Below are positions 14,201 to 34,000 of a stretch of 64,000 nt of DNA, one piece after another. The DNA is taken from the NCBI GenBank assembly GCA_950295325.1, contig OX485809.1:37515081-37579080 (forward strand). The letters run 5' to 3'. Numbering within the stretch: position 1 is the first letter of the stretch; the number at the start of each line of letters is the position of its first letter. The notes beneath the pieces are model-generated. The model was not told where the DNA came from. It saw only the letters and a list, made by a program, of their open reading frames with translations, and searched no databases. The position numbers and the translations under genes are program-made. This stretch comes from Polytrichum commune. Taxonomy: Eukaryota; Streptophyta; Polytrichopsida; Polytrichales; Polytrichaceae.

Positions 14201-14856
14201 AATTTCAACATGAAGATTTTATTTCATTTAAAAAAATAACTCTTTATAGTGATTTTTTTAATGACTTTTCACCTTCAAAATGTTGGGTAGATTTATTTAC
14301 AATTTCTCTCATATGTGTTTCATGAAGTTATTTCTTGGATGCTTATTGACTTGGGCTAGATGTAAGGCCGTGCATTGGGAGGGAAGGAAAATGTCATGAT
14401 TCCTTGTAACTAAACAAAATACCCCCTCCCCCAATGGTTTCATATAATAAGGGGGGGGGGGGTTCAAGATTGGTGAGGTAGTAATCCCACATGTGTATTA
14501 CCAATGGTTGGGCATTTTTTGTGTGGGCGATTATCATTCACGTTCACTACCATATTGTTCAAGTTGTACATCATATAACTTAGACAAATCAATTCTAAGC
14601 ATTTACCTACACTATTCAAAAAAAATGTTTTTATGTAAATTTGGGATAATAATAAATACTATTAATTTGTATATAATTTTTTTCGTTTGATGTCATGGAA
14701 CCACAAACCCCAATTTATTTAGAATGTACGACAGGCAAATACATGGCTTTGTCTTTCAATAAAATATACCAAATGTATGATAGGAAACTAAGTGTAGGAA
14801 AAGATGAGTGCAATTGCACCTATCTAATATAATGACTTCATTGATTTCATTATCCT

Positions 14857-15576
14857 CTCGAGGGGGGTAGTCATTGGTTGGAGTAGCAATATACGTGCGA
14901 ACAAATGATAGGGTATTTTTAAAACATGGGGGCAAAAAATTATAAATGGACTTAAGAGTAATATAGGGTATCAAAAACGGCACTGGACATCTTTAAAGTA
15001 TTATAGGGTATGGAATAATAGGTAATTTGGAATTATAATGCAAGCCATTTTTCTATTAACCCAAAGTAGAAATTTAGATAGATAGAAACTCCGGTCCCTT
15101 TTTAGCAAGGGGCCGGCGTGAATAAAGTGTCCGTTCGTAATGCCAATGACCTGATGCCCACTGGACAAGGGGACATTGGGACAATACTACTCTCCCCTTT
15201 CGAGGATGGACACTATAGCGACACACTATACTAGTTCCTAACTAGCCACTAGTGCCTTGAAGATACCGGACATGGTATCCCCCCAAAGGGCTTTGAGGTA
15301 CCCATACAACAAGGTCCAAGGACCCCCCACCATAGTTGGGTGGACTAAGGTAGTGAGCACCACGCCGGCATGGGGAATAGAACCCACAACCTCCTCATTG
15401 GGGGCCATGAGCCCTAACCACCAAGCCAAGGCCCGTGGTGCCTCAAGTAGAAATTTACATAATGATAGCATGTGAAAAAAAAGAAGAGAATTGAAAGTAA
15501 TACCCCCCTATAAAATAGTGGTTGTTCGCACCTATATCCTTAACTTTTTAACACACTGCCCCCCCCCCCCCCCGAG
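14857..15576. mobile_element. Transposon with poly-G terminal repeats and 8-bp target duplication (copy 1)
   Basis: Begins CTCGAGGGGGG and ends with a 15-base C run followed by GAG. It is flanked by the perfect 8-bp direct repeat ATTATCCT (14849-14856 and 15577-15584). The subterminal region has TAATATAGGGT-type words (near 14958 and 15000; TATAGGGG on the reverse strand near the right end), shared with the second copy at 29.5 kb. Removing the nested SINE leaves about 340 bp without coding capacity, so it is non-autonomous. The 8-bp duplication fits hAT or KDZ-type transposases. Confidence 0.75.
15077..15444 (-). mobile_element. tRNA-derived SINE
   Basis: A 368-bp element on the minus strand flanked by a perfect 13-bp target duplication, AAGTAGAAATTTA (15064-15076 and 15445-15457). 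Its 5' end carries a Pol III promoter: A box TGGCTTGGTGG (15428-15418) and B box GGTTCTATTCC (15384-15374), one base from consensus, spaced as in a tRNA. The 3' end is a short CTATCTATC tail. It sits inside the poly-G-ended transposon, so it inserted later. Presumably it was moved by LINE machinery. Confidence 0.85.
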
Positions 15577-16252
15577 ATTATCCTTGGCAACTTAAAACCA
15601 AATAGATGAACTTTATTTCCAACTTTTTAAAGCCCCTTGAACATAGTTTCCCAAAGAAATAATAATCAACATGTGATTTTTTTCTTCAAATTGAACTAAT
15701 TCATGAGAAAATTCTTCCTTGTAGAGTTCACAAAAGGTATTAATAAACACACAATCAAAATTTCAGAACAAAAAAAAAACCTCAAATTGGTAGCTCATAT
15801 TTGACTTTTTTTAAAACAATTATCTCAACTTGATAATTTATTTAGACTATGCATTGCATAACAATACCATTACATTGTTCATTACTCATTTTCATGATTT
15901 GAGAAGTTTCTTTGTAGGATCTTGCTTCGTGGCAATATATGTCCTGTTAGATTATTTCTCTTTTGTCCATGATTGTTTATAATGGTGACACCTAATACAT
16001 GCATGTGAGACCCATGGAGGTAACCCGGGTTACCGAATTTTTAGAGTGCGTGAACACAATTGATTAATTAATTTTTGGGATGGCGGGTTATTGAATTTAA
16101 AAAGTACGTGAACGCTATTAAAATAATAATAACAAATTTTTTGGAGGGTGCCCAAAAGAGGACCAACATTTGGTTTGCACTTTGCGAATAGTGCAGTCTC
16201 AACAATAGGGACATGAGACGGGCTTCATCATTGCGTTTATTGGGGTTCGTGT

Positions 16253-17125
16253 ATGTGTTTGCTATCGTGTTTGCTTGCAATGTCGCAGTGGTCAAAGTTT
16301 GCCATCTTCCATCACGGTGGGATGTCATTCATACCGATCGACGTCAGTGGCAATGGCAACTGCTTATATCATTGTGCTACTTGCTCATCGGTCATATCAT
16401 GCAACGATGCGTCCATAATCCGTAAACGTGTCCGTGACTACGCTATTGGTGTAGGTCGTCCTGTTGCTGAAGACATTGTGCGGCTATTGCATTCAGTCAT
16501 ACTAGGTGGATGCATTCATTTTGAAGAAGTGTTCAGCAACATGTGCCATGAGAGCACATATGCATCAAATGTTGACATGATGCTTTTGGCAATCTTGTAT
16601 AACGTGAAAATTGTATCATATTTTAACTACTCAATGGGCATTCAATCATTTGCGACGGCGGCGTTCATAGATGGTCACATGCAAACATACATAGTCGATT
16701 CCCAGCACACATTGTTCCTATATCATCATAGCTATCCAAACCCCTTGACGCCCATTGAACTGCAACATTGGATTTGCCTGAACCACTTTGCGCTCCTGGT
16801 GGAGAACTCTGCATTTAGGGTCAGGGTATCCAACTTGGAAGGTGAAGATAATGTTGAGGAAGATGCAAACGGCGCCTCTACATCACGCCATCGGGCTACT
16901 ATTGTCTATGTGCCCACAACACTGCCCCATCAAGTTGGTGGCATCAGTGGCTCTCCTCAGATGGTTCCTCATCGTAAGCGCAAGCCCCAAACTGATCGGA
17001 AGACCAATGCATCACAATGCGTCAAGAAGACTCCCGGTGAGGATGAGTTCAATCGAATCACAGAGTTATGGGGCCACCTAGAGAGCAACAAACGCGAGCA
17101 TGCTCAATGCGATGCATCATCATGA
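16253..17125 (+). CDS. OTU-domain cysteine protease-like protein of a transposon
   Basis: The open frame gives 290 residues; a start at the ATG of MSQWSKF... is also possible and fits the domain better. The N-terminal part contains FIPIDVSGNGNCLYHC, the GxGNC motif around the OTU nucleophile (Cys at residue 37), followed by a helical region with VRDYAIGVGRP. Later NVDMMLLAILYNVKIVSY and LNHFALLVE supply the usual OTU core strand and the candidate catalytic His (residue 178). The last 100 residues are polar and low in structure. OTU domains are deubiquitinases in the host but are also captured by several transposon groups. The position directly before a transposase-like gene on the same strand favours that here. 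The frame is intact while its neighbour is broken, so it may be the youngest or best preserved part. Confidence 0.72.
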   Translation: MCLLSCLLAMSQWSKFAIFHHGGMSFIPIDVSGNGNCLYHCATCSSVISCNDASIIRKRVRDYAIGVGRPVAEDIVRLLHSVILGGCIHFEEVFSNMCHESTYASNVDMMLLAILYNVKIVSYFNYSMGIQSFATAAFIDGHMQTYIVDSQHTLFLYHHSYPNPLTPIELQHWICLNHFALLVENSAFRVRVSNLEGEDNVEEDANGASTSRHRATIVYVPTTLPHQVGGISGSPQMVPHRKRKPQTDRKTNASQCVKKTPGEDEFNRITELWGHLESNKREHAQCDASS

Positions 17126-18235
17126 CGCTCATTCGACTCAGTCTCTCCCATATCGAAGTACGCACCATGCTTCACATTGGCGCTCCTCAGTTTGAATGTA
17201 TTTGCAAGGTGGTGGAAGAAGGCGCAGCCCTGGAGACTTTTCAGAGTCGACATCCTCGTAAGAAGCCCAAACACGCAATCAATGAGGAGGATTTGGCAAC
17301 GATCCATGTGCACACCAAATAAAGCCTTCGAATTGGAGGATGGGTTCCCATGCTCACACCATCGTTCGATTCAGTATTTTGTGAAGCCGGGAACGATATG
17401 GTTCAGCATCCATGCTAAATACACAGCAATCCAAGAGGTTGGGAATCGTCGTGTTTTATCGTTGTCCCGATGGCACCAATACATTCAATTCTACTACCTG
17501 GGCATGCGTTTAACGTGCTCAAAGGAAGACGTGTGCGATGCCTATATTCGTCTCAACATCCAACTACAGCGTGACGATCTGCAGGCCGATGAACGCACTC
17601 GACTCATGCTCAAGAAGGAGATGCATTTGGATGCGGTGATCGAGCATCGTCGCTTTGTGACCAAGTTTGTCTAGAAATACGTCAATTGCATCGCGCCTGA
17701 GCATATTGTTCCCGGCAAGTTGAATTCCCATGAGCTTGACGAGAACACGACGATGAATGACAATGATATTGTCGATGTCGATGCCGAGAAACCTCATGCC
17801 CATCCATCGACCGAGATTCGGGCTTAGATCCAAATCGAGGATTTTGGTAGATGTTTTGTTCTGCCTCAATTCGGACACCTTTGTCCATCGACCGATTATT
17901 TTGAGTCGAATCTAATGATGCAGAATTTCATCATCGCCGACCTAATCAAAGGCGTCAACAACGTGATCTTGTATGACGAATGCGGCCAAAGCAAGGACGT
18001 TGATGCGTTTTGCAGTCTACAGTTGCGTCAACACCTAGAGATTGCCAAGCAGGAAATGCCTCCCGATACCCTGTTCCTGGTTCTCAACAATTGAGTCAGG
18101 CAGAACAAATCGATCGCAATTTTCCAATTTTACGCGTTGTTGTGCTTGTTGTTCTACAAGAAGGTGGTCATTCTATTCTTGTTGCTTGGGCATTCGCATA
18201 ACCAAGCCAAATCGGGTAGTCGCCGACCTTCACAA
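17126..18235 (+). pseudogene. DUF7869-like transposase, N-terminal and central part, broken
   Basis: Degraded coding sequence in at least two frames. In order: a segment ending EEDLATIHVHT, a frame change, then FELEDGFPCSHHRSIQYF and RRFVTKFV, a stop at 17672-17674, then FVLPQFGHLCPSTDYFES, NVILYDECGQSKDVDAFCSL, TLFLVLNN-stop-VRQNKS and FYKKVVILFLLLGHSHNQ. The order 'YDE..KD', 'LxDNCxxQNK', 'LFYKKVxxxFLxxGHSH' recalls the DUF7869 domain of large eukaryotic transposons. The expected DNC reads NN-stop, so a presumed acidic residue is lost. The sequence ends at the Copia target site and resumes at 24803 in the same frame. Family assignment is from memory of the motif pattern. Confidence 0.6.
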
Positions 18236-18543
18236 TGTTGTTGACAACAAGAATTCTTCAACTGATACACACAGGAAAATTACATTCTCACTTACACACT
18301 GCAGACACGCATGATTAAGGAAACTTTTTATTCATGAACTAATTGCTACAGACAGGCAGACTACTAGTTTCTGCTGTGCAGACACGCATCACCTACGCAT
18401 ACGACATACACTCACACCTACAGCTCAGGAGTGAAGTTGTCCTTTTATTCTACTGCTGAGAAGCTTCTATCACTAATCAGTATCCTTGTGTAACTAATCA
18501 AGTAACTAATCTCGAATCAATGCGAAACGAACTAACTCCAATA
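18236..18543 (-). repeat. Copia 3' LTR
   Basis: Left-hand LTR on the plus strand, which is the 3' LTR of the minus-strand element. In element orientation it starts TATTGGAGTT and ends TTGTCAACAACA. The start is TA instead of the usual TG, and both LTRs share this. Confidence 0.93.
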
Positions 18544-18600
18544 CTCCCACTCGTTGAGCATTGAAAGATGAACCAAGGCTCCCACTCAATGCTCAACTGA
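18544..18600 (-). other. Copia polypurine tract and pol-end inverted repeat
   Basis: Directly before the 3' LTR (element sense) is GAGTGGGAG, the likely polypurine tract for plus-strand priming. The same nine bases occur a second time about 30 nt upstream. A perfect 12-bp inverted repeat, GTTGAGCATTGA (18553-18564) and TCAATGCTCAAC (18586-18597), lies in between; one arm contains the pol stop codon. Confidence 0.7.
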
Positions 18601-21318
18601 GCACATGCCAAGCTGATGGCGTAGTCGTTGAAAAGTGTCTTTGGGCAGTGCTTTGGTGAATATATCTGCCAGCTGATCGTGAGAAGAGACAAAAGAGGGA
18701 AGAAGAAGATCTGCAAGAAAGGCTTCTCGGATCACGTGATACTGGACGTCAATATGCTTGGTCCTGCGGTGAAATTCTGGGTTTTTGATAAGTCGCAGAG
18801 CACTTTGGTTATCAGTGAACAGAGGAGTGGGAGAAACAGGGGTTTTCCCAAGGCTACTAAGTAACCGTCAATGCCAGATAATTTCTTTAGTGGTTGCGGA
18901 GGCAGCAAGATATTTTGCTTCCGTAGTACTGGAGGCGCAACTGGCTTGTTTTCTGGAGGCCCAAAGAACAGGGCCGTGATTGATGAAGAAAATAAAACCG
19001 GATCGTGATTTTCGATCATCGAGGTCCATGGCGTAATTTGCATCAAAGTAGGCAGAAAGGGAGATGGGCTGATGGTTGCCAGAAAAAGAAATACCGAGAT
19101 GAAGGGTACCTGCTAAGTACTTCAAGATTCGGCGAAGAGCATTGCAATGGGCTGGTGAAGGGTTGGTGCAGTATTTAGCGGCAATACTCACGGCATAGGA
19201 GAGGTCAGGTCGGGTGCCAATGCAAGCGAACTGGAGACAACCCACAATAGTCTGATAGGGAAATGTTGAAGTGGAGAAAGAATCATCAGAAGGTTGGGTG
19301 TGTGGATCAGCGGGGACGGAGAGGGGCACCGCGTTAAGAAACCCAAATTTCGAACTAGTTTTGTAAGATAATGGGTTTGATCCAAGAAGATTTCTTGGGA
19401 ATCCCTGTGGCGGGTAATCCGCAAACCCACATAGCAGCCGGCAGGACTGCGAGTGTTGGAGAAGGCCTTATCCATGGAATTCAAGATAAAATTGATGTTA
19501 GTGCCTTTTGAGAAGCAGATGAGCCCATCATCCACATATATGAGAAGAATAATGGTTTGCCCGCCTTGTGAAGAATAGTAGGCACAGGGGTCGGCATCAC
19601 TGACTTGGAACCCAAATTGAAGGAGAAAAGTGTGAAACTTGTGATTCCAATTTCGAGAGGCTTGTTTGAGACCATAGAGAGCTTTCCGGAGAAGACAAAC
19701 ATAGTCAGGATGGTCCAGGTCAACAAAACCTTCAGGCTGCTCCATGTAAAGAAGCTCTGCAATATCTCCATTCAAAAAAGCTGTCTTGATGTCGAACTGT
19801 ACGATTTCGAGATCATCAGCCGCGGTAATAGCCATTACAATTCGAACTGTTTCGAATTTTACTACAGGAGAAAACGTCTCGCTGTAATCAATGCCGGCCT
19901 TTTGAGTGTAGCCTTTAGCGACTAAGCATGCTTTAAACTTATCAATATCTCCATTGGGAAGATATTTGGTCTTGAACACCCACTTACATTGGATGGCTTT
20001 TCGCCCATCAGGAAGGCGAACCAGCTCCCATGTCTTGTTTTCTCGGAGGGAATGGATTTCCTCTGTCATGGCTTTAACCCACTGAGCAGCATTAGGACTG
20101 TGAAGAGCTTCCAGATAAGAGAAAGGATCATCTGGAGAAGAGTCAGGAGAGATAGGGTTTGTGGGTTGCGAAGAGTAGGCGGAGGACTCGAGAGAAGAGG
20201 AACTGAGACTCGGCTTATCAGGAACTGCGTGACTTAGGTGAGCTTGAGTGAGCGGAGGAGGAGTGGTAACAGATGAGGATGAACCAGTAGGAGGAGGGGC
20301 AATTTCGGCAAGAGATCGTAGACGAACATGAGTATCTGGCTGATAATTCGGATGTAAGAGAAGAGTCCGTGGTGTGAGGGAATTAAGAGCCTCGACAGAA
20401 GAAGGCACAATAGGACTAGTAGCAAGAATTGGACAACGTGAGGTAGCAGATGCAGGAGTGGAGGTGAACTCAGAAGGAGATTGAGTTGGGGTGAGCTCAG
20501 AGGGATTTTGAGGTGAGAGGGACTCAGAAGAAGAAGAAGAGGAAGAAGAAGGGAGTTCATCTGTAGGATTTGGAAGAGAAACAGCAAGAGATGACAAATT
20601 ATCAGCAGGGAAGGAAGAAGGCCGTTCTACTGGACTGCCATAGAGGAGCTGTTCATTAAAGACCACATCACGACGGATCAGGACCTTAGAGGTCACCGGA
20701 TCCCAGAGGCGATAGCCTTTAGTATGATCACAATAGCCCAAGAAGTAGCAGAGGTGACTCTTAGGATCTAATTTGGTGCGCTGCTTCTTCTCAATATAGG
20801 CATAAGCATGGCAACCAAAAATTCTGAGATGTTCCAGGGAGGGTTTGAAACCATACCAGAGTGTGAAAGGTGTGTTTCCAGGAATTAAGCGGGAACCAGT
20901 GCGATTTAGGGTATACACAGCCGTGTGACAGGCTTCACCCCAAAAATTCAAAGGAAAACCACTTGTGTGTAGAAGAGAACGGACACTTTCCATGATAGTG
21001 CGGTTATCACGCTCACAGAAGCCATTCTGCTCTGGTGCATAAGGAGCTGTAGACGTCCTGTAGACACCAAAGGGCATCAGACTTCTCAGGGATGCAGAAA
21101 AGATGTCGATATCCGGAGTAATCGTCCTTAAAAAGGATGTAGTAGAGGGCTCCTCCCAGTGAAACATGGGCCATAGGACCACAGAGATCTGCATGAATCA
21201 GGTAGCTGGGAGCCGAAGAGGGTGTGCGAATTGGTGAACTGATGAAGCTGTGCCGGTGACTTTTGCCAAGAACACATCCCTGGCAGAATTCGGGGATAGA
21301 CTTATTTTGTAGAGTCAT

Positions 21319-22273
21319 TGTAATGTAACTATACCTAGTTACCATCCTACGATGACGAGGCGTCCTCAACGACGAGGCTAATTGACAATATGATATTGTA
21401 AAGTAACTACACCTAGTTGCCATCCTACGACGACGAGGCGTCCTCAACGACAAGGCTAATTGACAATGTGACATTTAATGTATACCATGATGACGAGGTT
21501 GGGTGTATGGACACCTAGTCATCGACGGTAGTGTCATTGTAAGGTAAATACCAATATTGATGGATAATTGAATATTCTAACCACATGTGCCAGTGTGTAA
21601 GCGGAGGATGATGGGAGCTAGACAACTCCTAGTTGAAGATGGATGGATTGGAGTTAGACAACTCCAGATTGACAACATGTGCACTGGAGTTAGACAGCTC
21701 CGCATATAGTGCATTGGAATTAGACCATTCCATATTGAGAACATGTGCACATGAGTTAGACAACTCTCGATGAGGTGCATTGGAGTTGGACCGCTCCAGA
21801 ATTGGAAAGATGAATGTTATTCATTGGAGTTAGACAACTCTTAATGAATAGATGGATCTAGTTGGAATTAGACAATTCCAACTAGAAGAATGAATGGATG
21901 AATTTAGTTGGAATTAGACAATTCCAACTAGAAAGAAGGATGGATGAATCCAATTGGAATTAGACAATTCCAATTGGAAGAATGAGATTGAGATAAGAGA
22001 TGGAAGAAGGTTCTAGAAGAACCAAAGATAGAAGATTCATAGTAGAACTAAAAGATAGAGCTATGAATATGATACTTTTACTATATGTAAAGATAGAAAG
22101 TAAAAGTAGTGCTTCGGCATAAGAAGAAGCTCGGGGGAGGAGAGAGGACCTTTGGTCTCTCTCCTATGGTCGGGTGGTTGAGCTTTAACCAAAACATACT
22201 TGGTCTATGATTGTTTTGGGTTGATACGTGTTAGTGTGGAAGTTGGTGATAAACCGGTGAGAGGTTCGTTACA
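21319..22273. mobile_element. Solo-LTR-like insertion inside the Copia integrase
   Basis: A 955-bp block begins TGTAATGTAAC and ends TTCGTTACA, giving short terminal inverted repeats TGTAA/TTACA. It is flanked by the 5-bp direct repeat GTCAT (21314-21318 and 22274-22278). It separates the gag-pre-integrase part from CQGCVLGKSH of the Copia polyprotein. There is no coding capacity. The left end holds two ~78-bp direct repeats (ACCTAGTT.CCATCCTACGA, GACGAGGCGTCCTCAACGA), and the middle holds an array of small hairpins. TG...CA ends and a 5-bp duplication fit a solo LTR left after recombination between LTRs. Confidence 0.8.
21614..21985. repeat. Array of ~11 covarying GGAGTT-AGAC-AACTCC hairpins
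   Basis: The motif GGAGTTAGACAACTCC and variants recur every 25-50 bp. The two six-base arms are complementary around an AGAC centre. Variants keep pairing: GGAATT-AGAC-AATTCC appears three times, in longer stems (AGTTGGAATT/AATTCCAACT and CAATTGGAATT/AATTCCAATTG). GGAGTTAGACAGCTCC and GGAGTTGGACCGCTCC keep the outer four pairs. Spacer sequence between units is poorly conserved apart from CATGTGCA. Confidence 0.8.
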
Positions 22274-24475
22274 GTCATCCCAGTGACTGCTTCTGTTCGG
22301 TCCATAGCTGGATAGTGGGATAGTTCAGATGGCAAAGTCGTTGGTGCCAAATTGCCAGGTTTCTAGTCCCATCAAGTTTAGTACTGGTCCCTAGGGACTT
22401 GATCACATTTGCATGAGAAGGAGTAAATAGAGCTCTGATATGGAGTTTATAGAGCATTCCTTCCAAAGATCCCTCCATAAGCACAATGCCATTAGCAAGC
22501 ATTTGGCAGCCAGTCTTAGTGTAGAGAGTGTTAATATTTTTGCATGCTGCCGAAGAGACAGAGAAAAGATTTCTCTGAAGTGTAGGGACGTACATAACGT
22601 TGGTGAGGAGGCTGCGCTCCCACTGATTTCGGATTTTGATCTCAATATGAATATCACCAATCCCTTCAACATAGGTTGTGTGTCCTCCCACTGCCTGAAC
22701 TGGCCAAGTACCGGGATGAACAGCAGTGAAGTTTGTGAACCAAGATCTTTGGTCAGACATGTGGTGTGATGAGCCACTGTCGGCAAGCCAATCGGTAGAG
22801 TGCACTTCTTGATCAAGAAGTTGTGCCATAAATGCTCGTGGTGTTGTCATTGTCGGATGAGACAATTGTGCTGAATATCGGGAGTCCTGTGAAAAAGAAG
22901 CGGCTCTGGACGCTGATGCAGGATGCGATTCTGTCGAAATACTGGGGGCATTTCGATTGGTGACAGGTCTTCTTGGGGGTTGGGGGCACTCTTTGTGCCA
23001 ATGGCCAAGTTCTCCACAGTTTCCACAACGTGAGATCTGCTTGCGAGTAGCAATTTCTTGAGCACGCTGGAAGCGGGGATCATGGTACTCATGTGGTGAA
23101 AAGGAACGGGAGGCTCTGTTCCCGTCTGGTGTGGCGTCGTTGGGACTCCCTCTGGCAGGAAAATTAGGCCGATAGCGCCCCGAGTCGCCATAAGATTGCG
23201 AACTCCGAGAATAGAATGCCGAAGTGTGATTGTGGGTGGAATTCTCGGACTAGCGCTTTCAAATGGCTCGCTCCTCATCGAGAAGCCATGTCTGCAGGTG
23301 AGTTAGAGTCTGCTGCTCTGGAGCCACTGTCTTCCACATAGTTTGAAAAGTATCATAGGCTGCTGGCAGGTTGCTCAGCATTTTGGAAACAACCATTGCC
23401 TCAGAGAAGGGCCTGGCGCCGAGTTTTTCGATCTGACTATTCAACATTTCGAGATCTTCAATGAAGGTAGCCATATCGCCATTATCCCCTAGCCGCAGGT
23501 TGTAATAGCTCTCTTGTAACTGGTACAGTGACTGCACAACAGTGCGTTGATGAATAAGAGCTAGCTTATCCCATATTTCCTTTGAAGTTTTGCAGTTAAT
23601 GATCTGGTGAAGAATTGGTTTGTCAACCAATTGAATGAGAATAGAAAAGGCTTGTTTATCCCTTTTCTTGAAATCAATAATGGCATTTTGGACTTCCTCC
23701 CTTTGGGCAGGAGACATTCCTTCATCAGGAGTCGGGGTAACCTCTGAGAATAGAGTACGCCCAAACTGGATCTCAGGAATTGGGGTGGAAGATTGTGCAC
23801 ATGGTAGGATAGGCATAATTTCAGTGCCGTCGACAATTCCCATAAAATTTCGGCCATCAAGATAGGCCTAAGCCTGAAACTTCCATAGATTGTACTCCTT
23901 TCCATTGTACTTCTGTAGATTACTTAATTCCTTGAGATCGCTCATAGTGATGACAGTTTGCAGATGGGATTTGCTGTTGATCACCGTGAGGAGGACAGAG
24001 AGGGCAGCAGATATCAAGAAGGAAGAAAGAAGAAAATGGGAAAATATGTTTTAAGAGGCACCACTTGAGCGATAACTATCGAAAACGTCAATCATTGGAA
24101 TACGCCAATGTGCTGTTAGGGAAGAAAAAGAGAACGAGGAAAGACCAAGATTCGTTGTTTCATGTTATATGTATGCTTTCTGAGGAGAGCTCCGGAGCCT
24201 CTCCAACGCAGCGTTCCTTTTCTCTTAGATTATGATCATGGCAGACATGGAGGCCGAGAATGTCCCTATCCCTGTGAAGGTTGTGCCCGAGACTCTGCTT
24301 AAGAAGCGCAAGCGCAATCGTATGTTGTATCAGAGTTGAGGGTAAAAGACAGACGCAAGAGGCAGGCAGTTGTGGGAAGAAAGAATCAATGCAAGAAAGA
24401 AAAATCACTTATCAGCAAAAAAACAGGAACAGCTAGCAACATTCGACACTCATTAGCAACTCGGAAACGCAAGAT

Positions 24476-24489
24476 GTGGGCCCATAACC
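24476..24489 (-). other. Copia primer-binding site for the initiator tRNA-Met anticodon half
   Basis: Directly downstream of the 5' LTR in element sense is GGTTATGGGCCCAC. This is the exact complement of the anticodon arm of plant initiator tRNA-Met (GTGGGCCCATAACC, anticodon CAT). Most LTR elements pair with the tRNA 3' end (TGGTATCAGAGC). Pairing with the anticodon region is known from Drosophila copia, which uses a cut 5' half of the same tRNA. Confidence 0.8.
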
Positions 24490-24797
24490 TGTTGTTGACA
24501 ACAGGAATTCTTCAACTGATACACACAGGAAAATTACATTCTCACTTACACACTGTAGACACGCATGATTAAGGAAACTCTTTATTCATGAATTAATTGC
24601 TACAGACAGGTAGACTACTAGTTTCTGCTGTGCAGACACGCATCACCTACGCATACGACATACACTCACACCTACAGCTCAGGAGTGAAGTTGTCCTTTT
24701 ATTCTACTACTGAGAAGCTTCTATCACTAATCAATATCCTTGTGTAACTAATCAAGTAACTAATCTCGAATCAATGCGAAATGAACTAACTCCAATA
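24490..24797 (-). repeat. Copia 5' LTR
   Basis: Right-hand LTR of 308 bp, about 97 percent identical to the other by eye (eight transitions, no indels). A leader of about 530 bp separates it from the gag start at 23945. Confidence 0.93.
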
Positions 24798-24802
24798 CAC
24801 AA

Positions 24803-25442
24803 TTCAATGTGGAAAGCTGGACCTTTTTATCCCATCTGAGGTCATCGCGACGTGGAATAACGGTCAAGTCCATTGAGGCCGTGTTCCTGGATCACAATGA
24901 TCTCAATCGCCCATTCTTCACGGGATGGGAGCCGCTATTGTCCAAATACTTCAAACGCATGCCAGTGAATTACATGAAGAACTTCTTCTTCGTGCTCGAT
25001 TCGGGTGTGTGCACAATGCAACTCGCCGGAGGAGGAAGCCGTCATGTTCTCGATGATCAAACCTACGAACATTAACCTTATCCAGTGCAAGCTAATCAAG
25101 AGTCTATGGGTTTCGGTGGCGCCCTGGTTGTCGATGAGAGACGCCTCGATTTGCAATTTGGTATTGTCTCGCACATCGGTCGGCACCTTGACGGCCAAGA
25201 AGCTGAAACCGTTTTCAAAGAAGTATTTTTTGATCGAGACCGTCTATATTTCATACTATCCGGCCAGGTCAGACGATGGTGATGACATTGAGCCAGATTC
25301 AGGCCTGGAGACTCGCTCCAACACACCAAAGAAGACGCTGAAGAAGAAAGTCGCATCTGGCACAGAGGCGCCAACCTCAAAGCTCGTGTCAGTCGCCCGA
25401 AGCAGAAGGCAACGGCTATCTCCAAGTAGCCGTCCGTCCTAA
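24803..25442 (+). pseudogene. DUF7869-like transposase, C-terminal part, broken
   Basis: Continuation of the transposase after the Copia insertion. With one copy of CACAA kept, the reading frame runs across the junction without a shift into FNVESWTFLSH, AVFLDHNDLNRPFFTGWEP and YMKNFFFVLDSGVC. A frame change near 25010-25020 is needed to reach SPEEEAVMF and LKPFSKKYFLIETVYISYYP, followed by a lysine- and serine-rich tail that ends at a stop near 25440. The smooth frame shows that the Copia element landed in a still recognisable gene. The frame change is a separate lesion. Confidence 0.6.
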
Positions 25443-25990
25443 GGGCCGCTTTATATTAGGGCCCATTTCTAGGGCCCATTTCCAAACCCTAGGCATCAAC
25501 CAATGAGAGTGCTTTAGATTGCCCAAATGGGCCCTAATATGGTCCCGAGGGCTTTATATTGAGAGTCGGTCCACTTCTCCTAAAGCTTGCTTGGAGGGTG
25601 ACATGGCGGCGTTTTGGAGGGAAAAAAGTGGGTCGAAGGCAAAAAAAACGGGTCGAGGGTTTATGGAGACCCACTTCGCATCTACGGCTCACTTCACCCA
25701 ACTTCCGTCATATAGTCATTAATGACTTTATGACTTTATGGTTTTATGACTTTAGTTCAAGAAAGGGCATAATTCATTTAAGACAAAGTGGGCCGTGGAT
25801 TGGGCCTTACAATATAAAGTCCCTAGGCCCATTTGAAAGGCCCACTTTAAAGCGGAATTTCCAATTTGGGCCCTACAAGTGGGCCTATGGACTTTATATT
25901 GCAAGGCCCACTCAACGGCCCACTTTGTAAAGTAGGGCTAAAGTTAGAGTAAAGTGAGGCCCACTTCACCCTAAGTCCACTTCACCCTAA
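25443..25990. repeat. GGCCCA-rich foldback repeat, left copy
   Basis: Starts TAAGGGCCGCTTTATATTAG, a start shared in direct orientation with 29208. The first 100 bp form a hairpin (TATTAGGGCCCATT pairing with AATGGGCCCTAATA). The part 25751-25967 is a near-perfect inverted copy of 29274-29490, about 95 percent by eye over 217 bp. Words such as AATATAAAGTCC and GTGGGCC recur. Its position directly after the transposase stop suggests insertion into the transposon's 3' flank. Confidence 0.75.
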
Positions 25991-27137
25991 GTTTCTTCTC
26001 AAGGAATAGTCCCCCATCACCGGGCCTTAGATACTCCTCATGCCCCGTGCTCATGCCCAAGCGCACTGACCAATTGCGTATTCTCAAAATAAAAACCGAA
26101 GTCTCAAAAATTGTTGTCATTGTGAGGGCAAATAGAGCTTGATGAGCCCGACAATTTTAGCCCCTTCTCTTTTGATTTGGACCAATTTTGAGGTAGCTAT
26201 CATAATCCGCGCACACCCGGGTTACCGCCATCAGTCTCATGTGTCCATGTGTGAAGCCAACATGTTAATGCTCCACAATGGCCATGTGGTAGGGTAGGCC
26301 TACAATGTACTAATGTATTGATAAATAGATCATCAATAATAAACCAAAGCCACCTAATCTATGATAACTTTTCATCCACTTCTCCAATTACATCAAATCT
26401 GTGGTAGGGTGGAGAAATTGACTTCTTAAGCAATGGGAGTTTGAAATGGATGAGTAAGCCTATTGCTTTGGAATATAATGATAATTGATGACACAATATA
26501 GGGTAATTTAATTTAAGACGGTTAAGAATATGTGCACAGACTCCTAACGCCTTAGAATATAAATGGCCACATCATCCAAATGATGAAATGTATTGTTAAT
26601 GGCATGTCACAAGGTGAAATGAGAAATACGCCAAACATTTGTTTTATTGGGGCTCACAATATTCTATCTTGTTTGACAATAAGTATCATGTAACAATTCT
26701 AGATCGTAGCAACTAGAGACAGTACATGATATGTGAATAGTACCTCTATAATTACTAAAATGTTATTATTTAATACAAAATATATTGAATGTTTAAAATA
26801 GCAAGAAACATGGTGAATACACCTTTGATATACATTTTGTATCTATTTCATTAGTACCTCTAATTGTGCAAAATTTTGAATATGCTTCAATTTACTTAAA
26901 TATTCCAATCCATAACAACCTTTGGTTTAAGTTTTGGGTAGCATGTTCCAAAATTTAATTTTTCTCATGCAACCTGAAAATACAATTTTTTTGGGAGTAG
27001 CCCGTAAAAAATGAAATCCTTGAGGCAACTTTCAAAAACACTTGGAAGGTCCAAATATAGCCCTTCAAATCCATAGATATAGGCCCTTGCTCATGCTCAT
27101 GTCCTACCTTCACTCATCACTTTGAGTACAAAACAAT
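25991..27137. other. Intergenic, no gene
   Basis: Right subterminal part of the OTU-type transposon up to about 26262, then AT-rich DNA with no coding signal. Confidence 0.5.
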
Positions 27138-27309
27138 TAATGGCCCATCCCCGCCCAACCTTATCAAATAACCAAAGTCTTTCCCAAAAACATGGCAAAG
27201 CTCTCTTGGTTATGGCAAAGGCACCCGAGTGCACCTACAAGAACTACTCCAAAGATTTTCGAGTAGGTTTAGTTAAGTACACTAGCTATGATACTTAGTG
27301 TCACCAATT

Positions 27310-27719
27310 CACGGGGAGGTCACTCCATTGTCAAGTTGAACACCACGTGCGACCAAAAAAAATCTTCTTTTGGTAAGTTGCACCACCAAAATGGGTCAAT
27401 TTTTTATCAATTCTTTTTCATGAGTAGATATACATAGTACTTATGACATAATTAAAAGTGGTAACTAAATTTGATGATTTGTTTTTTTTCATAAAACATA
27501 CCATTTCTAACTAGAATGACACATAATTGAACTAAAAAATTACTAAAAAAAATAAAGATGACTAAAAATTTCAAAAAAATATACAAAAGATGCTATCAAT
27601 GGTTATGTATATGTAGAAACAATATCATAAATTTTAAAATTATATATGGCATGTAATATAGGGGTAGCAAACCTTGTCCGCACGTGGTGTCAACTTGACA
27701 ATGAAGTGACCTCCCCGTG
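27310..27719. mobile_element. 410-bp MITE with ~42-bp TIRs and 8-9-bp duplication
   Basis: Terminal repeats CACGGGGAGGTCACTCCATT... and ...AATGAAGTGACCTCCCCGTG match over about 42 bp. Flanks carry CACCAATT (27302-27309 and 27720-27727), extendable to nine bases CACCAATTC if the left end is set one base later. This length fits hAT or Mutator-type transposition. The interior is AT-rich and non-coding. Confidence 0.85.
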
Positions 27720-27862
27720 CACCAATTCTAATTGTCCTGCTCAATATTGATTGTAAACTACAGTATAGTGTCACCAACAGTAAGTGTTAACCCAATATTC
27801 TTTGTCATTTCTTGTAAAAAAACAATTGGAGGATTAAAGAGTTACAATGTTACAGTCACTTA

Positions 27863-28272
27863 CTCCCTCCATTTCAAAATAAAAGTTACATTTTAGAAAA
27901 TTCGTGGGCTTAAGGTCATTTACCACACTTTTAGCATGAAACAACATCGTTGCATAGCTCTCACTAAGCGCTTTCCGGCAAGCTAGGGTTGTCCATAGTA
28001 ACGCCCATTCATCGCCATTGACGATTGACACCGATTGATCTCACACATAAAACCGCATTGATGTGCATAGACACCGTCAAGACCAAATATCAATTGTTAA
28101 ACAAGTGTAAACTGTTATCTAACTTAGTAGTTCATTAGCAACAACATTTACATTGTTTCTGGCAACATTCCAGTTCGTTTGGTGAAGTTTTAGAGAAATT
28201 TCACCAAATGTAACTTTTATTTCATGGCGCATCTTATGTGCAAACGTAACTTTTATTTTGAAACGGAGGGAG
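27863..28272. mobile_element. Stowaway-like MITE
   Basis: Begins CTCCCTCCATTTCAAAATAA and ends with the inverted TTATTTTGAAACGGAGGGAG, the well-known Tc1/mariner-type plant MITE ends. It is flanked by TA dinucleotides (27861-27862 and 28273-28274), the expected target duplication. A second internal AACTTTTATTT motif near 28210-28220 extends the stem. Confidence 0.85.
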
Positions 28273-28455
28273 TACTACGTAATTTTCATCCAACTTTCAA
28301 TCATCCATGACAACATTTTCATCACAAGTTGTTGACAAGAGAAGGTACGGTTTTGGCCAATGGATGAACTCATCCATCATCTATGACAATATTTGTTCAC
28401 TTATTCAGAAGAAGTGTCATCCAAAAAGTTACCATAGTGACATTAAATATCATAT

Positions 28456-28969
28456 TTATCTACCTTACCATCAATGTTGTTAGTGGAGTTCCTCACGCCT
28501 TTATAAGTAATTTAACTAAGAGACAACACATTTAAAGGCCTTACATGCTTACCTCATCTCTAGGTATGCATGAGAGGAGGGAGGGTCAGTGCTAAAAGCA
28601 TTCCACATCCTTTGTCAACTAGGCTCAGGACTAGATAGCATCAATGATGTGGAAGCCATGTCTTTAAAAGAGACTCTTATGCCCCCTCCCCACCTGACTT
28701 TAGCGAAGCCTAATAGTTAGTTATGAAAACACAACCTCCACACCATCGACATTATCTAGTGCCAAGCCTAGTTGGCAAATGATGTGGCATGGCTTAAAAG
28801 TGGAGGTTTTAAGCCCCAAGCACCGACCCTCCCATCGGTACCTAGACATGAGGCAAGAATATAGAACTTTTAAAAGTGTTGCCTCCCGCCCTTGTGATAG
28901 GTTGCTTTTTAGTCTTAGCTATGAGGGCACGAGGAGCTTCATTAACAAAAACCGATGGTAAGATAGATG
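28456..28969. repeat. 514-bp imperfect foldback
   Basis: The left half from TATCTACCTTACCATC and the right half ending GATGGTAAGATAGATGA fold together along most of their length, with blocks GGAGTTCCTCACGCC/GGCACGAGGAGCTTC and GAGGGTCAGTGC/GCACCGACCCTC. The loop carries ATGCCCCCTCCCCACCTGAC, which is a further inverted copy of the outer end near 29199. Confidence 0.6.
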
Positions 28970-29207
28970 AGTAGTAAGGGATTTGGGGATGGGACAAAAA
29001 CTATCCAACATTCATTGCTTGGTAGATAAAACCATAAACATGTGTGAAAGCTACTTAACTAAAAGCTACTCAAAAATCTCCGGAACAAGTTCTTGTAGGT
29101 GCATTGGAATAGCTGGATGCCTCCCCTATAACTAAGGGAGCTTTACCCGGGTGTTTGGAAAAACTTTGGTTATTTGGTAAAGTCAGGTGGGGAGGGGGCA
29201 TTAGGCT

Positions 29208-29513
29208 AAGGGCCGCTTTATATTAGGGCCCATTTGGCGGCCGGCCCATTTGGAGTAGAGTCCACTTGGACTTGAAGTGGGCCTTACTTTACTCTAACTT
29301 TAGCCCTACTTTACAAAGTGGGCCGTTGAGTGGGCCTTGCAATATAAAGTCCATAGGTCCACTTGTAGGGCCCAAATTGGAAATTCCGCTTTAAAGTGGG
29401 CCTTCCAAATGGGCCTATGGACTTTATATTGTAAGGCCCAATCCACGGCCCACTTGGGCTTAAATGAATTATGCCCTTGCTTGAACTAAATAACTTAAAT
29501 GACTTTATATTGG
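29208..29513. repeat. GGCCCA-rich foldback repeat, right copy
   Basis: Starts with the same AGGGCCGCTTTATATTAGGG as the left copy in direct orientation, but 29274-29490 is the inverse of 25751-25967. It is interrupted at TATATTGG by the poly-G-ended transposon and seems to resume after 30840 with GAAAGCATAATCCAAGGCCC. Confidence 0.7.
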
Positions 29514-30832
29514 CTCGGGGGGGGGGGCACTGGCGAAAAACGTAGGAACTACGTGCGATAAAATATAGGGTCTTGTATAAAAATTTGGCGTAAAATTTGT
29601 AAATTATTAGATGTAGTATAGGGTGCTTTGGGATTGTGAAACATGATTATATGTAATATAGCATTTGACAAAACATGATTAAATTACCTAACTGGTACAT
29701 ATAAAATAGCATGGAGAAAAAACGATAGTTTCAAAAATTAAATACTTTGCCACCAAAATATGGCATGTTCTATATAGGAAGGGTTCAAAAGATAAGGGTG
29801 AAGGTTGGTACTAAGTGGGGCAATTGTTGGCAACCCATTGACTTGATGAAACGTGTAGTCCAGAACAGAAATAGAGAAACGCTCTTCCCAACTGCTATGG
29901 CTTACCTCCATTGGTTCAAAAAACAGCTGGGTCTCAACAAATATAAGTATGTTGAGAGTGACTATGTGTGGGTTGATGTGGATGCTATTATCTCAACTGT
30001 GTCTCTACTGTATGAATCAACTAGCAAAATCTACACCTTAGATGAGGTAGATGCAAACTCATTGAGTGAGTTCATTTCAAATAAAAAATAAAACCTGCTA
30101 AATTTGTACTATCTCACACATGTGGAGATATAATTTGGAAAAATGGTTGAATGATCATTAGTATACCTTGAAATCTGTAGTAGTCATTTCAGTTCGAGTA
30201 CCCTCATATCTCCCACATGTGTAAATGGTAGCCTAGCTAGTTTAGGTGGATTTTGCTTGCATGGCGTGGGATTTTCCTCCAATGTGTAGGATTGGAAGAT
30301 CAAGGCATCAATTATAGGGATTCTGCAAACCTTGTAAATGTGACTTTGAGACACATGTGGCTGGCCTGTTCCCTAAGACCTCAAGGTTTCTAATTGTGTT
30401 ATCCAACACAAATTTTATTCGTTGGCTCGTGTTGCTTAATGACATGTAATTGCAATCTTTTGTTGTTATTATTTAGTGTTTTGCTTTGCCCAGACTTCAG
30501 TGTGACCCTGAACCCTAAACCCTAGTAAATGTTTGTTTCTCTTACTCTGTACATGTGCTTCTAATGAGAATTCTATCATATCATACACTTTAAGGAATGG
30601 GGGCAATCAGGGGAAAAAAATACATATAAGTAATATAGGGTACCATAAAATCAACCATCCAAGAATTTATAATTACCAATAGGGTACAAATAATCACAAC
30701 AATTTACCATTATTTCAAAAATTAGCATCCCTTATAATCCTTTCTCATAGGTAAATAGCCCCCATTTTAATAGGTCATTATCGCAGGTGTATGCAAAATA
30801 TACAAGGGTGTGCCCCCCCCCCCCCCCCCGAG
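29514..30832. mobile_element. Transposon with poly-G terminal repeats and 8-bp target duplication (copy 2)
   Basis: Begins CTC, an 11-base G run, then CAC; ends GTGTG, a 17-base C run, then GAG. Flanked by the perfect 8-bp direct repeat TATATTGG (29506-29513 and 30833-30840). The interior has AATATAGGGT words near both ends, as in copy 1. It also contains a 114-residue open frame, so this copy is closer to an autonomous ancestor. Confidence 0.82.
29747..30091 (+). CDS. Unknown protein fragment inside poly-G-ended transposon
   Basis: No family recognised with confidence. The open frame has no ATG at its start (it opens at TTG in LPPKYGMFYIGRVQKIRVKV) and looks like the tail of a longer protein. 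It is rich in Lys, Tyr and Val, with KWGNCWQPIDLMKR, AMAYLHWFKKQLGLNKYKY and YVWVDVDAIISTVSLLYES, and ends SEFISNKK before TAA. Composition and the lack of internal stops suggest a real coding relic of about 115 residues. It may derive from the transposon's own protein, since it lies within the element's boundaries. No catalytic motif can be named. Confidence 0.5.
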   Translation: MPPKYGMFYIGRVQKIRVKVGTKWGNCWQPIDLMKRVVQNRNRETLFPTAMAYLHWFKKQLGLNKYKYVESDYVWVDVDAIISTVSLLYESTSKIYTLDEVDANSLSEFISNKK

Positions 30833-30869
30833 TATATTGGAAAGCATAATCCAAGGCCCAATTCCTTAC

Positions 30870-32644: not shown

Positions 32645-34000
32645 CTACTCTGAGTCCTCTTCTGAGGTAGGCAATGTAACATCACCGTGCTTTTGCACCA
32701 TAGCACCATAAAATGTTCGAGCCATAGACTCGTTAAATTGGGTTGTTTCAAGTAGTATCTTCTTTATCTTCTTTTCTTTCTGTTTCTTGGTTCTTGATGA
32801 ATCTTCTAATTCATCGTCACTTGAACCATAATCGCTCCCATCCTCGACAATTTGTTGAATAGAAACTTTCGGTTTCTGTAATGACTGCATTTGCTTGATT
32901 GATGTCTCAGGAATATAAAACATATCATTGTTGTGCAATTTACCAAAAATCCCAAGGCGTGTCTGCTCCATTTCTTCTTCTGCTTGTTTGGCCCATCGCA
33001 TGTCAAAGCCATCAATGTGAATGAGGCAAAGATTATGCAAACATATGTAAGCTGTGACTACATCCGGTACATTATCTAATTGAATATCAATGCGTTTTAA
33101 TAGAATTCGCCATCTTCCTTTCAATATTCCAAATGCTCACTCTACCGCCATTCTGGTACTCGATTGTATGAAATTCCAATACTGTTTCTCTCTAGAGAGC
33201 CTACTCTTTGAACCTTTAAATGGAAGAATAAAACAAGGCCTCATAGGATACGCTGCATCACCTATAAGTTTGTATGGCTTGAACTTTCCTTGTAAGAATT
33301 TTTTGCCTATTTCGGTTCTTTGGAACACTGACCAATCGTGATTACTTCCTGCCTAACCAAAGTCAAAGTCCCAAAACAAGCATTTTGAGTCCACGACACC
33401 TTGCAACAAAGCCGAGTAGAAACTTTTTCGACAATAATAGGATGCGGGATCTATCTTGGGCACAATAATTGGTACATGACTAACATCTACAGCACCAATG
33501 ATGTAAGGTATGCCTCTTACTTTTTCAAATTCGGATGCTGTGATTTGAATCTGTTCCTTAGTAAGTTTTGGAAATACTAAAGGTTTAACAAGAACCTTAA
33601 TTGCTTCACAACACTCCTTAACAATTATAGAGGTAGTTGACTCTGCTAAACCATATGTTTCTCCACACATCCTCAAAGTATTTCCCATCGACAATCGTGA
33701 TAAAGTAACAGAAACCTTCGTTTCTACGTCTATGCTTAACTCCATGCGAGTTCCACCTCTCTGTAGCATCGGACGTAACACCTCACACAAATACACGAAC
33801 GTATCCTAACTCAACCTTAACCTCTCTTTTATCATTTGTTGAGAAAAAGAAGATGCTTGACCGCTAATAAAGTGGCGTTGCACAAAGCCTTTCACCCTCC
33901 CATAACACCACAAACTCGAGATCTTGGACGATCAAGAACAACATAATCATCAGACTATGATTTATGCTTGTTAGGGCCACACAATGAAATGACAACAATA
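32645..34000 (-). pseudogene. PIF/Harbinger transposase (HARBI1-like), nonsense-mutated
   Basis: DDE nuclease of Harbinger transposons. All recognisable parts lie in one frame, broken by three stops. The upstream part reads GRVKGFVQRHFISGQ and SFSQQMIKERLRLS, then TAG (33808-33806). Next come YLCEVLRPML, a helix-turn-helix-like LRMCGETYGLAESTTSIIVK, and GAVDVSHVPI with the first catalytic Asp, to a TAG (33355-33353). LIGDAAYPM supplies the second Asp and TRMAVE the Glu, followed immediately by TGA (33139-33137) and AFGILKGRWRILLKR. The C-terminus is acidic (EDGSDYGSSDDELED). CGA-to-TGA and TGG-to-TAG fit decay by cytosine deamination. The partner Myb-like protein and TIRs were not found. Confidence 0.9.

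Follow-up and report, generated by a model that had tools for sequence, protein, structure and literature searches.

A 64,000-nucleotide stretch of the Polytrichum commune genome (NCBI GenBank assembly GCA_950295325.1, contig OX485809.1, positions 37,515,081 to 37,579,080 of the forward strand; hereafter the window) carries two elements, which we call element 1 (14857-15576) and element 2 (29514-30832). Both are interpreted here, with a probability of roughly 0.87, as non-autonomous elements belonging to a single lineage of cut-and-paste DNA transposons, which has a candidate RNase-H-type (DDE) transposase gene. The analysis establishes the ends of the lineage, its 8-bp target-site duplication (TSD), its repeated recent insertion, the association of its ends with a single long conserved gene, and the descent of element 2 by internal deletion. 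The lineage appears to be real, recently mobile and undescribed, and either P-like or a new superfamily. The features of the two elements, as read from the sequence and from genome comparison, are the following (MITE, miniature inverted-repeat transposable element; SINE, short interspersed nuclear element).

14849-14856, no strand: left 8-bp TSD of element 1, ATTATCCT
14857-15576, plus strand: element 1, a non-autonomous MITE of the family of the full-length copy C5:50059283-50067708
14857-14871, plus strand: 5′ terminal repeat of element 1, CTC-GAGGGGGG-TAGT, 15 nt
15081-15444, minus strand: SINE-like insert of 364 bp nested in element 1, foreign to the transposon
15555-15576, plus strand: 3′ terminal repeat of element 1, ACTG-C15-GAG
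15577-15584, no strand: right 8-bp TSD of element 1, ATTATCCT
29506-29513, no strand: left 8-bp TSD of element 2, TATATTGG
29514-30832, plus strand: element 2, 1.3 kb, a non-autonomous deletion derivative
29514-29531, plus strand: 5′ terminal repeat of element 2, CTC-G11-CACT (reading on as CACTGG)
29562-29571, plus strand: AATATAGGGT, a subterminal word on the 5′ side of element 2, with a second site at 30632-30641
29729-30091, plus strand: 120-codon open frame, the last ~100 codons of which are a remnant of the C-terminus of the candidate transposase
30809-30832, plus strand: 3′ terminal repeat of element 2, TGTG-C17-GAG (family consensus AGTG-Cn-GAG)
30833-30840, no strand: right 8-bp TSD of element 2, TATATTGG

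The two elements and their genome-wide copies

A first-pass annotation of the window had placed the two elements at these coordinates, with inverted ends and perfect 8-bp TSDs, and our analysis agrees on every one of these points, as it does on the presence of AATATAGGGT-type words inside both elements (at 14960-14969 in element 1). The annotation also described the ends as CTCG plus a G-run on one side and a C-run plus GAG on the other. Element 1 ends in C15GAG on the right and begins with CTCGAGGGGGG on the left, where the G-run is short, is broken by an A and then continues with 6 G only. Because the SINE-like insert is nested inside element 1, the element proper measures about 340 bp, not 720 bp. 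The insert is bounded by 17-bp duplications (15064-15080 and 15445-15461), has at least 39 other genomic copies at 97-99% identity, and contains tRNA-like box A/B motifs that were called by eye.

Searches covered the genome of 407.8 Mb in 64 contigs. The two end patterns of element 2 had 182 and 174 exact matches (2 and 0 for the reversed-pattern controls), the CTCGGGGAGGNCACT end pattern had 158 (reversed control 0), and the 5′ end pattern of element 1 had 1,072 (reversed control 0). On contig C1, 31 inverted pairs were found among 100 CTCG8 sites, whereas 1,000 shuffles gave 1.5 pairs on average and never more than 6; these pairs were mostly spaced at 332-356 bp. Ends of the element-2 type were paired at about 0.8 and 1.3 kb. 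Element 2 itself has at least 40 genomic copies at 97-98% identity. Each of the 30 loci extracted from this identity range was flanked by an 8-bp TSD; in 25 loci the two copies of the TSD agreed perfectly, and in 5 they differed at one position. All 30 begin with CTC(G)n and end with (C)nGAG, with CAAG replacing CGAG at a single 3′ end. Their mean divergence from the consensus was 1.2%, a value biased low since the 30 loci were the best-scoring matches, and two of them (L011 and L012) have a common TSD and are probably a single duplicated insertion. The G/C-ended elements are thus a real transposon family, far beyond chance expectation, and the mobile element has multiplied more than a thousand times in this genome. 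The genome-wide end search that the first-pass annotation had proposed did return over a thousand matching ends, and the 30 element-2 loci are further copies with matching ends and 8-bp TSDs.

About 20 element-2 copies with equal scores were considered as a recent burst, and this was rejected. One element-2 copy rides in a larger repeat (L070 and L084-L091, on contigs C3, C1 and C2), with equal-scoring copies at about 20 places; the five of these that were checked have identical flanks and the TSD CTTAGGGA in all cases, and so are passengers of another repeat.

Full-length copies and the candidate transposase gene

The 120-codon frame of element 2 led, through a diverged copy on contig C1 (69% identity), to a longer gene upstream. 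With a 150-aa upstream piece as query, many loci with long open frames were recovered (maximum 1,549 codons), among them L073, which has an uninterrupted frame of 1,518 codons and a downstream flank that is the 3′ end of element 1. From the TSD at this 3′ end, GTGATTTC next to CTC-G11-CAGT was predicted and found at the far end. The full-length element, C5:50059283-50067708, is thereby 8,426 bp long, is flanked on both sides by the perfect 8-bp TSD GTGATTTC, and has CTC-G11-CAGT at its 5′ end and C8GAG at its 3′ end, with the 1,518-codon frame lying 740 bp from the latter and with AATATAGGGT-type repeats in its subterminal regions. Element 1 is 91.4% identical to this copy at the 5′ end and 88.6% at the 3′ end. 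Two more full-length copies were located at coordinates predicted from the C5 copy, with the perfect TSDs GTTTAAGG and GCAATGGT; for these two the ends alone were read, and the gene search shows an open frame of 1,518 codons at each of them. The three full-length copies, which answer the first-pass annotation's call for a complete copy and carry a candidate transposase gene, therefore have CTC-N8-CA(C/G)T at either end, each copy with its own perfect 8-bp TSD, and they are apparently intact. Since such near-identical copies are available, activity is directly testable.

The gene has a further copy on contig C6, with 99.6% identity across 1,063 codons, and near-identical gene copies show 13 differences, too few to estimate the ratio of nonsynonymous to synonymous substitution rates. 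Among divergent members, fourfold-degenerate sites are randomised (25-30% identical), whereas second codon positions are 50-65% identical, which indicates a real gene under selection at the protein level. Element 2 is connected to this gene by its positions 247-1306, whose 1.06 kb match the 3′ portion of a broken copy of the candidate transposase gene on contig C4 at 95.6% identity. This broken copy ends in the 3′ region of element 2, and element 2 therefore derives by deletion from a sister lineage. Its 120-codon frame has no Pfam match, and the predicted fold of the 120-aa remnant alone had a predicted local distance difference test score of 36.6, too low for use.

The two elements could in principle be hAT elements or hAT-derived MITEs with odd ends that are moved by an ordinary hAT transposase, the 1,518-codon gene being an unrelated passenger. 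Such an origin would fit the 8-bp TSDs, and hAT dimerisation domains are common in the genome (150 scored matches). However, none of 30 hAT (PF05699) loci had matching ends of its own downstream, one nested MITE excepted, and the long gene is free of any hAT domain at E ≤ 10. The gene is also enclosed by the ends in all three full-length copies, whose TSDs differ, and its remnant lies inside element 2. We regard the hAT origin as largely refuted and very improbable. One hAT locus (L057) looked promising at first because of four ATAGGGT words, which proved to belong to an unrelated tandem repeat.

The long protein has no match in Pfam (E ≤ 10), NCBIfam or PDB sequences and no relatives in the viral or prokaryotic contigs searched, and a literature search with the motif SDGDSRRR gave no paper. 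Three members with 34-51% identity to L073 in the core were used for motif comparison, and the blocks AEDET, NPL/LPRLV, GHxSDGDxRRR, QDxxHxGKKLxNPL and GSDxCExFFS were invariant among them. Candidate catalytic residues are D716, D835 and E1077, with D882-x-x-H885 between the last two. The latter is invariant in the three divergent members and would correspond to the DxxH signature (as defined in PMC9587614) only if the candidate D and E are correctly chosen. Taken together, these blocks would fit a DDE transposase of the RNase-H type from the hAT/P/MuDR/Kolobok/Dada group. L078 (C7:23872000-23875400) is a distant relative of the gene, about 30% identical, with a 1,120-codon open frame.

The variable G-run within the terminal repeat

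Family alignment resolved the end as 15 nt, CTC-N8-CA(C/G)T, with TAGT at the 5′ ends of element 1. N8 is G8 in the young families. An older family, CTCGGGGAGGTCACT, has the same 15-nt frame with GGGGAGGT as N8, and the copy CTCGAGGGGGCCACT has the same CTC-N8-CACT end with GAGGGGGC as N8, so that neither contains a pure G-run. An 8-bp TSD was seen in the older family for the outer element of L025. The first-pass annotation had taken a long G(n) to be the terminal repeat itself, a proposal that these related families do not support in that form. The G-run is not constant within the terminal repeat, and its long form does not define the element. A 6.8-kb locus with the older ends (L069, C2:67049780-67056680) seemed autonomous and was rejected, being a CTCGGGGAGGTCACT MITE of about 0.6 kb that is split by an insert of about 6 kb; the insert has PIF1-like helicase remnants and is possibly a Helitron.

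Run lengths vary around the G8 core. Among 100 listed 3′ ends of element 2, found with a search pattern that demanded a run of at least 7, a run of exactly 8 was commonest (33 of 100), none was shorter, and the tail extended to 21. At the 5′ ends of element 1 the lengths are bimodal, at 7-8 and 12-14. The full-length copies have 5′/3′ runs of 11/8, 8/8 and 8/9, and their first ~320 bp are identical except for the run length (11, 8 and 8). The single insertion carried within the larger repeat, recognisable by its TSD CTTAGGGA and flanks, has 5′ runs of 13, 14, 15 and 10G-T-4G. Copies of the same insertion thus differ in run length, and the run therefore changes after insertion, presumably by slippage.

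All run lengths hinge on assembly accuracy in homopolymers, and G/C homopolymers are generally error-prone in sequencing, so the variation might be attributed to sequencing or assembly error instead of biological slippage. We consider this improbable, because the interrupted run 10G-T-4G is common to two copies and because the distributions are not symmetric: their peak lies at 7-8, and a broad mode or tail follows at greater lengths. Even if the run lengths were erroneous, the elements, ends and TSDs stand. Equally doubtful, or slightly more so, is a gain of long runs during transposition, for example by gap repair at the ends, as opposed to slippage at rest. The lack of correlation between run length and copy divergence at the element-2 loci (rho 0.04, p 0.81) would be in line with such a gain. 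Against it, the single insertion amplified in the larger repeat differs in run length from copy to copy even though TSD and flanks are shared. Under post-insertion slippage, the family provides a natural experiment in which more than 1,000 ends, presumably starting near G8, have drifted independently.

The suggestion that such elements explain part of the homopolymer load of the genome is correct in kind and minor in extent. Of 41,946 runs of G8 or longer, 2,877 (6.9%) start with CTC, well above the reversed control (516), and the transposon ends account for only a minor share of the homopolymers in the genome. The overall G/C homopolymer load is very high: the total of 41,946 was counted on both strands of 408 Mb, and more than 90% of these runs are not accounted for by CTC transposon ends.

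Elsewhere in the window, frames of a Copia-type retrotransposon (integrase, reverse transcriptase, RNase H-like; 18868-23867, minus strand) and open frames resembling a PIF/Harbinger-type nuclease (32645-33805, minus strand) were recognised by eye.

Proposed mechanism and comparison with known transposons

We propose the following mechanism for the lineage. The 1,518-codon product would be a DDE transposase of the RNase-H type. It would bind the AATATAGGGT words in the subterminal regions together with the inner CACT/CAGT motif of the end, cleave at CTC, and integrate into target sites with an 8-bp stagger. MITEs with the same ends would be moved in trans by this transposase. The G8 core would be mutable, changing in length after insertion, presumably by replication slippage and often to 12-15 or more, and the long homopolymers would then be a by-product of a G8-containing end and not a recognition element. 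Several points weigh against this interpretation. The protein has no statistical match to any known transposase, and its DDE assignment consists of motifs identified by eye; the stretch of about 3.1 kb that precedes the open frame in the C5 copy is left without an explanation; the full-length counterpart of element 2 is known only as the broken C4 copy, for which no 5′ end was found; and no excision or transposition was observed.

The lineage may already have been deposited under some name, as our comparison covered Pfam, NCBIfam and PDB. For hAT and KDZ, which the first-pass annotation had named as makers of 8-bp duplications, there was no Pfam match at E ≤ 10. The lineage is like hAT in its 8-bp TSD and abundant MITEs, and unlike it in having neither Dimer_Tnp_hAT (PF05699) nor any other hAT model at E ≤ 10; its CTC ends also differ from the usual hAT termini. 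Under TSD-based classification, a lineage with 8-bp TSDs and no hAT protein would probably be assigned to hAT by mistake. KDZ/Zisupton elements likewise make 8-bp TSDs, as in our lineage, but no Pfam KDZ match was found in three lineage members. Novosib has 8-bp TSDs as well, a likeness in the TSD.

Two placements seem about equally plausible, each falling somewhat short of even odds. The lineage could represent a new eukaryotic DNA transposon superfamily, characterised by a DDE-like transposase of about 1,500 aa in the DxxH group, 8-bp TSDs, CTC-N8-CA(C/G)T ends and recent mobility. It could instead belong, as a divergent branch, to the P superfamily, which includes the Drosophila P element and the zebrafish THAP9 transposon; it would then have a P-type transposase in a plant-like host and be nothing new. 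The host differs from those of P, as does the protein, which is about 1,500 aa long and has no detectable sequence homology to P. Profile comparison by hhalign with the Drosophila P core gave a probability of 0.1% (E 0.55), and the Pfam models PF21787-PF21789 (P-type RNase H and GTP-binding) match P itself, used as a positive control, but not these proteins. Because the hhalign comparison gave no support, we have not filed the lineage in P. The P superfamily nevertheless appears to be the best lead, as suggested by the 8-bp TSD and the motifs seen by eye. An 8-bp TSD, short terminal inverted repeats with subterminal repeats, and internal-deletion derivatives are features of that superfamily (PMC7776569) and are all found in our lineage. 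The candidate D, D, DxxHxxKxxxN and E motifs also occur in the same order, with AEDE, SDGD, DxxHxxKxxxN and CExFFS resembling, by eye, FDEM, SDLG, DTPHLIKLVRN and VEHFFG of Drosophila P.

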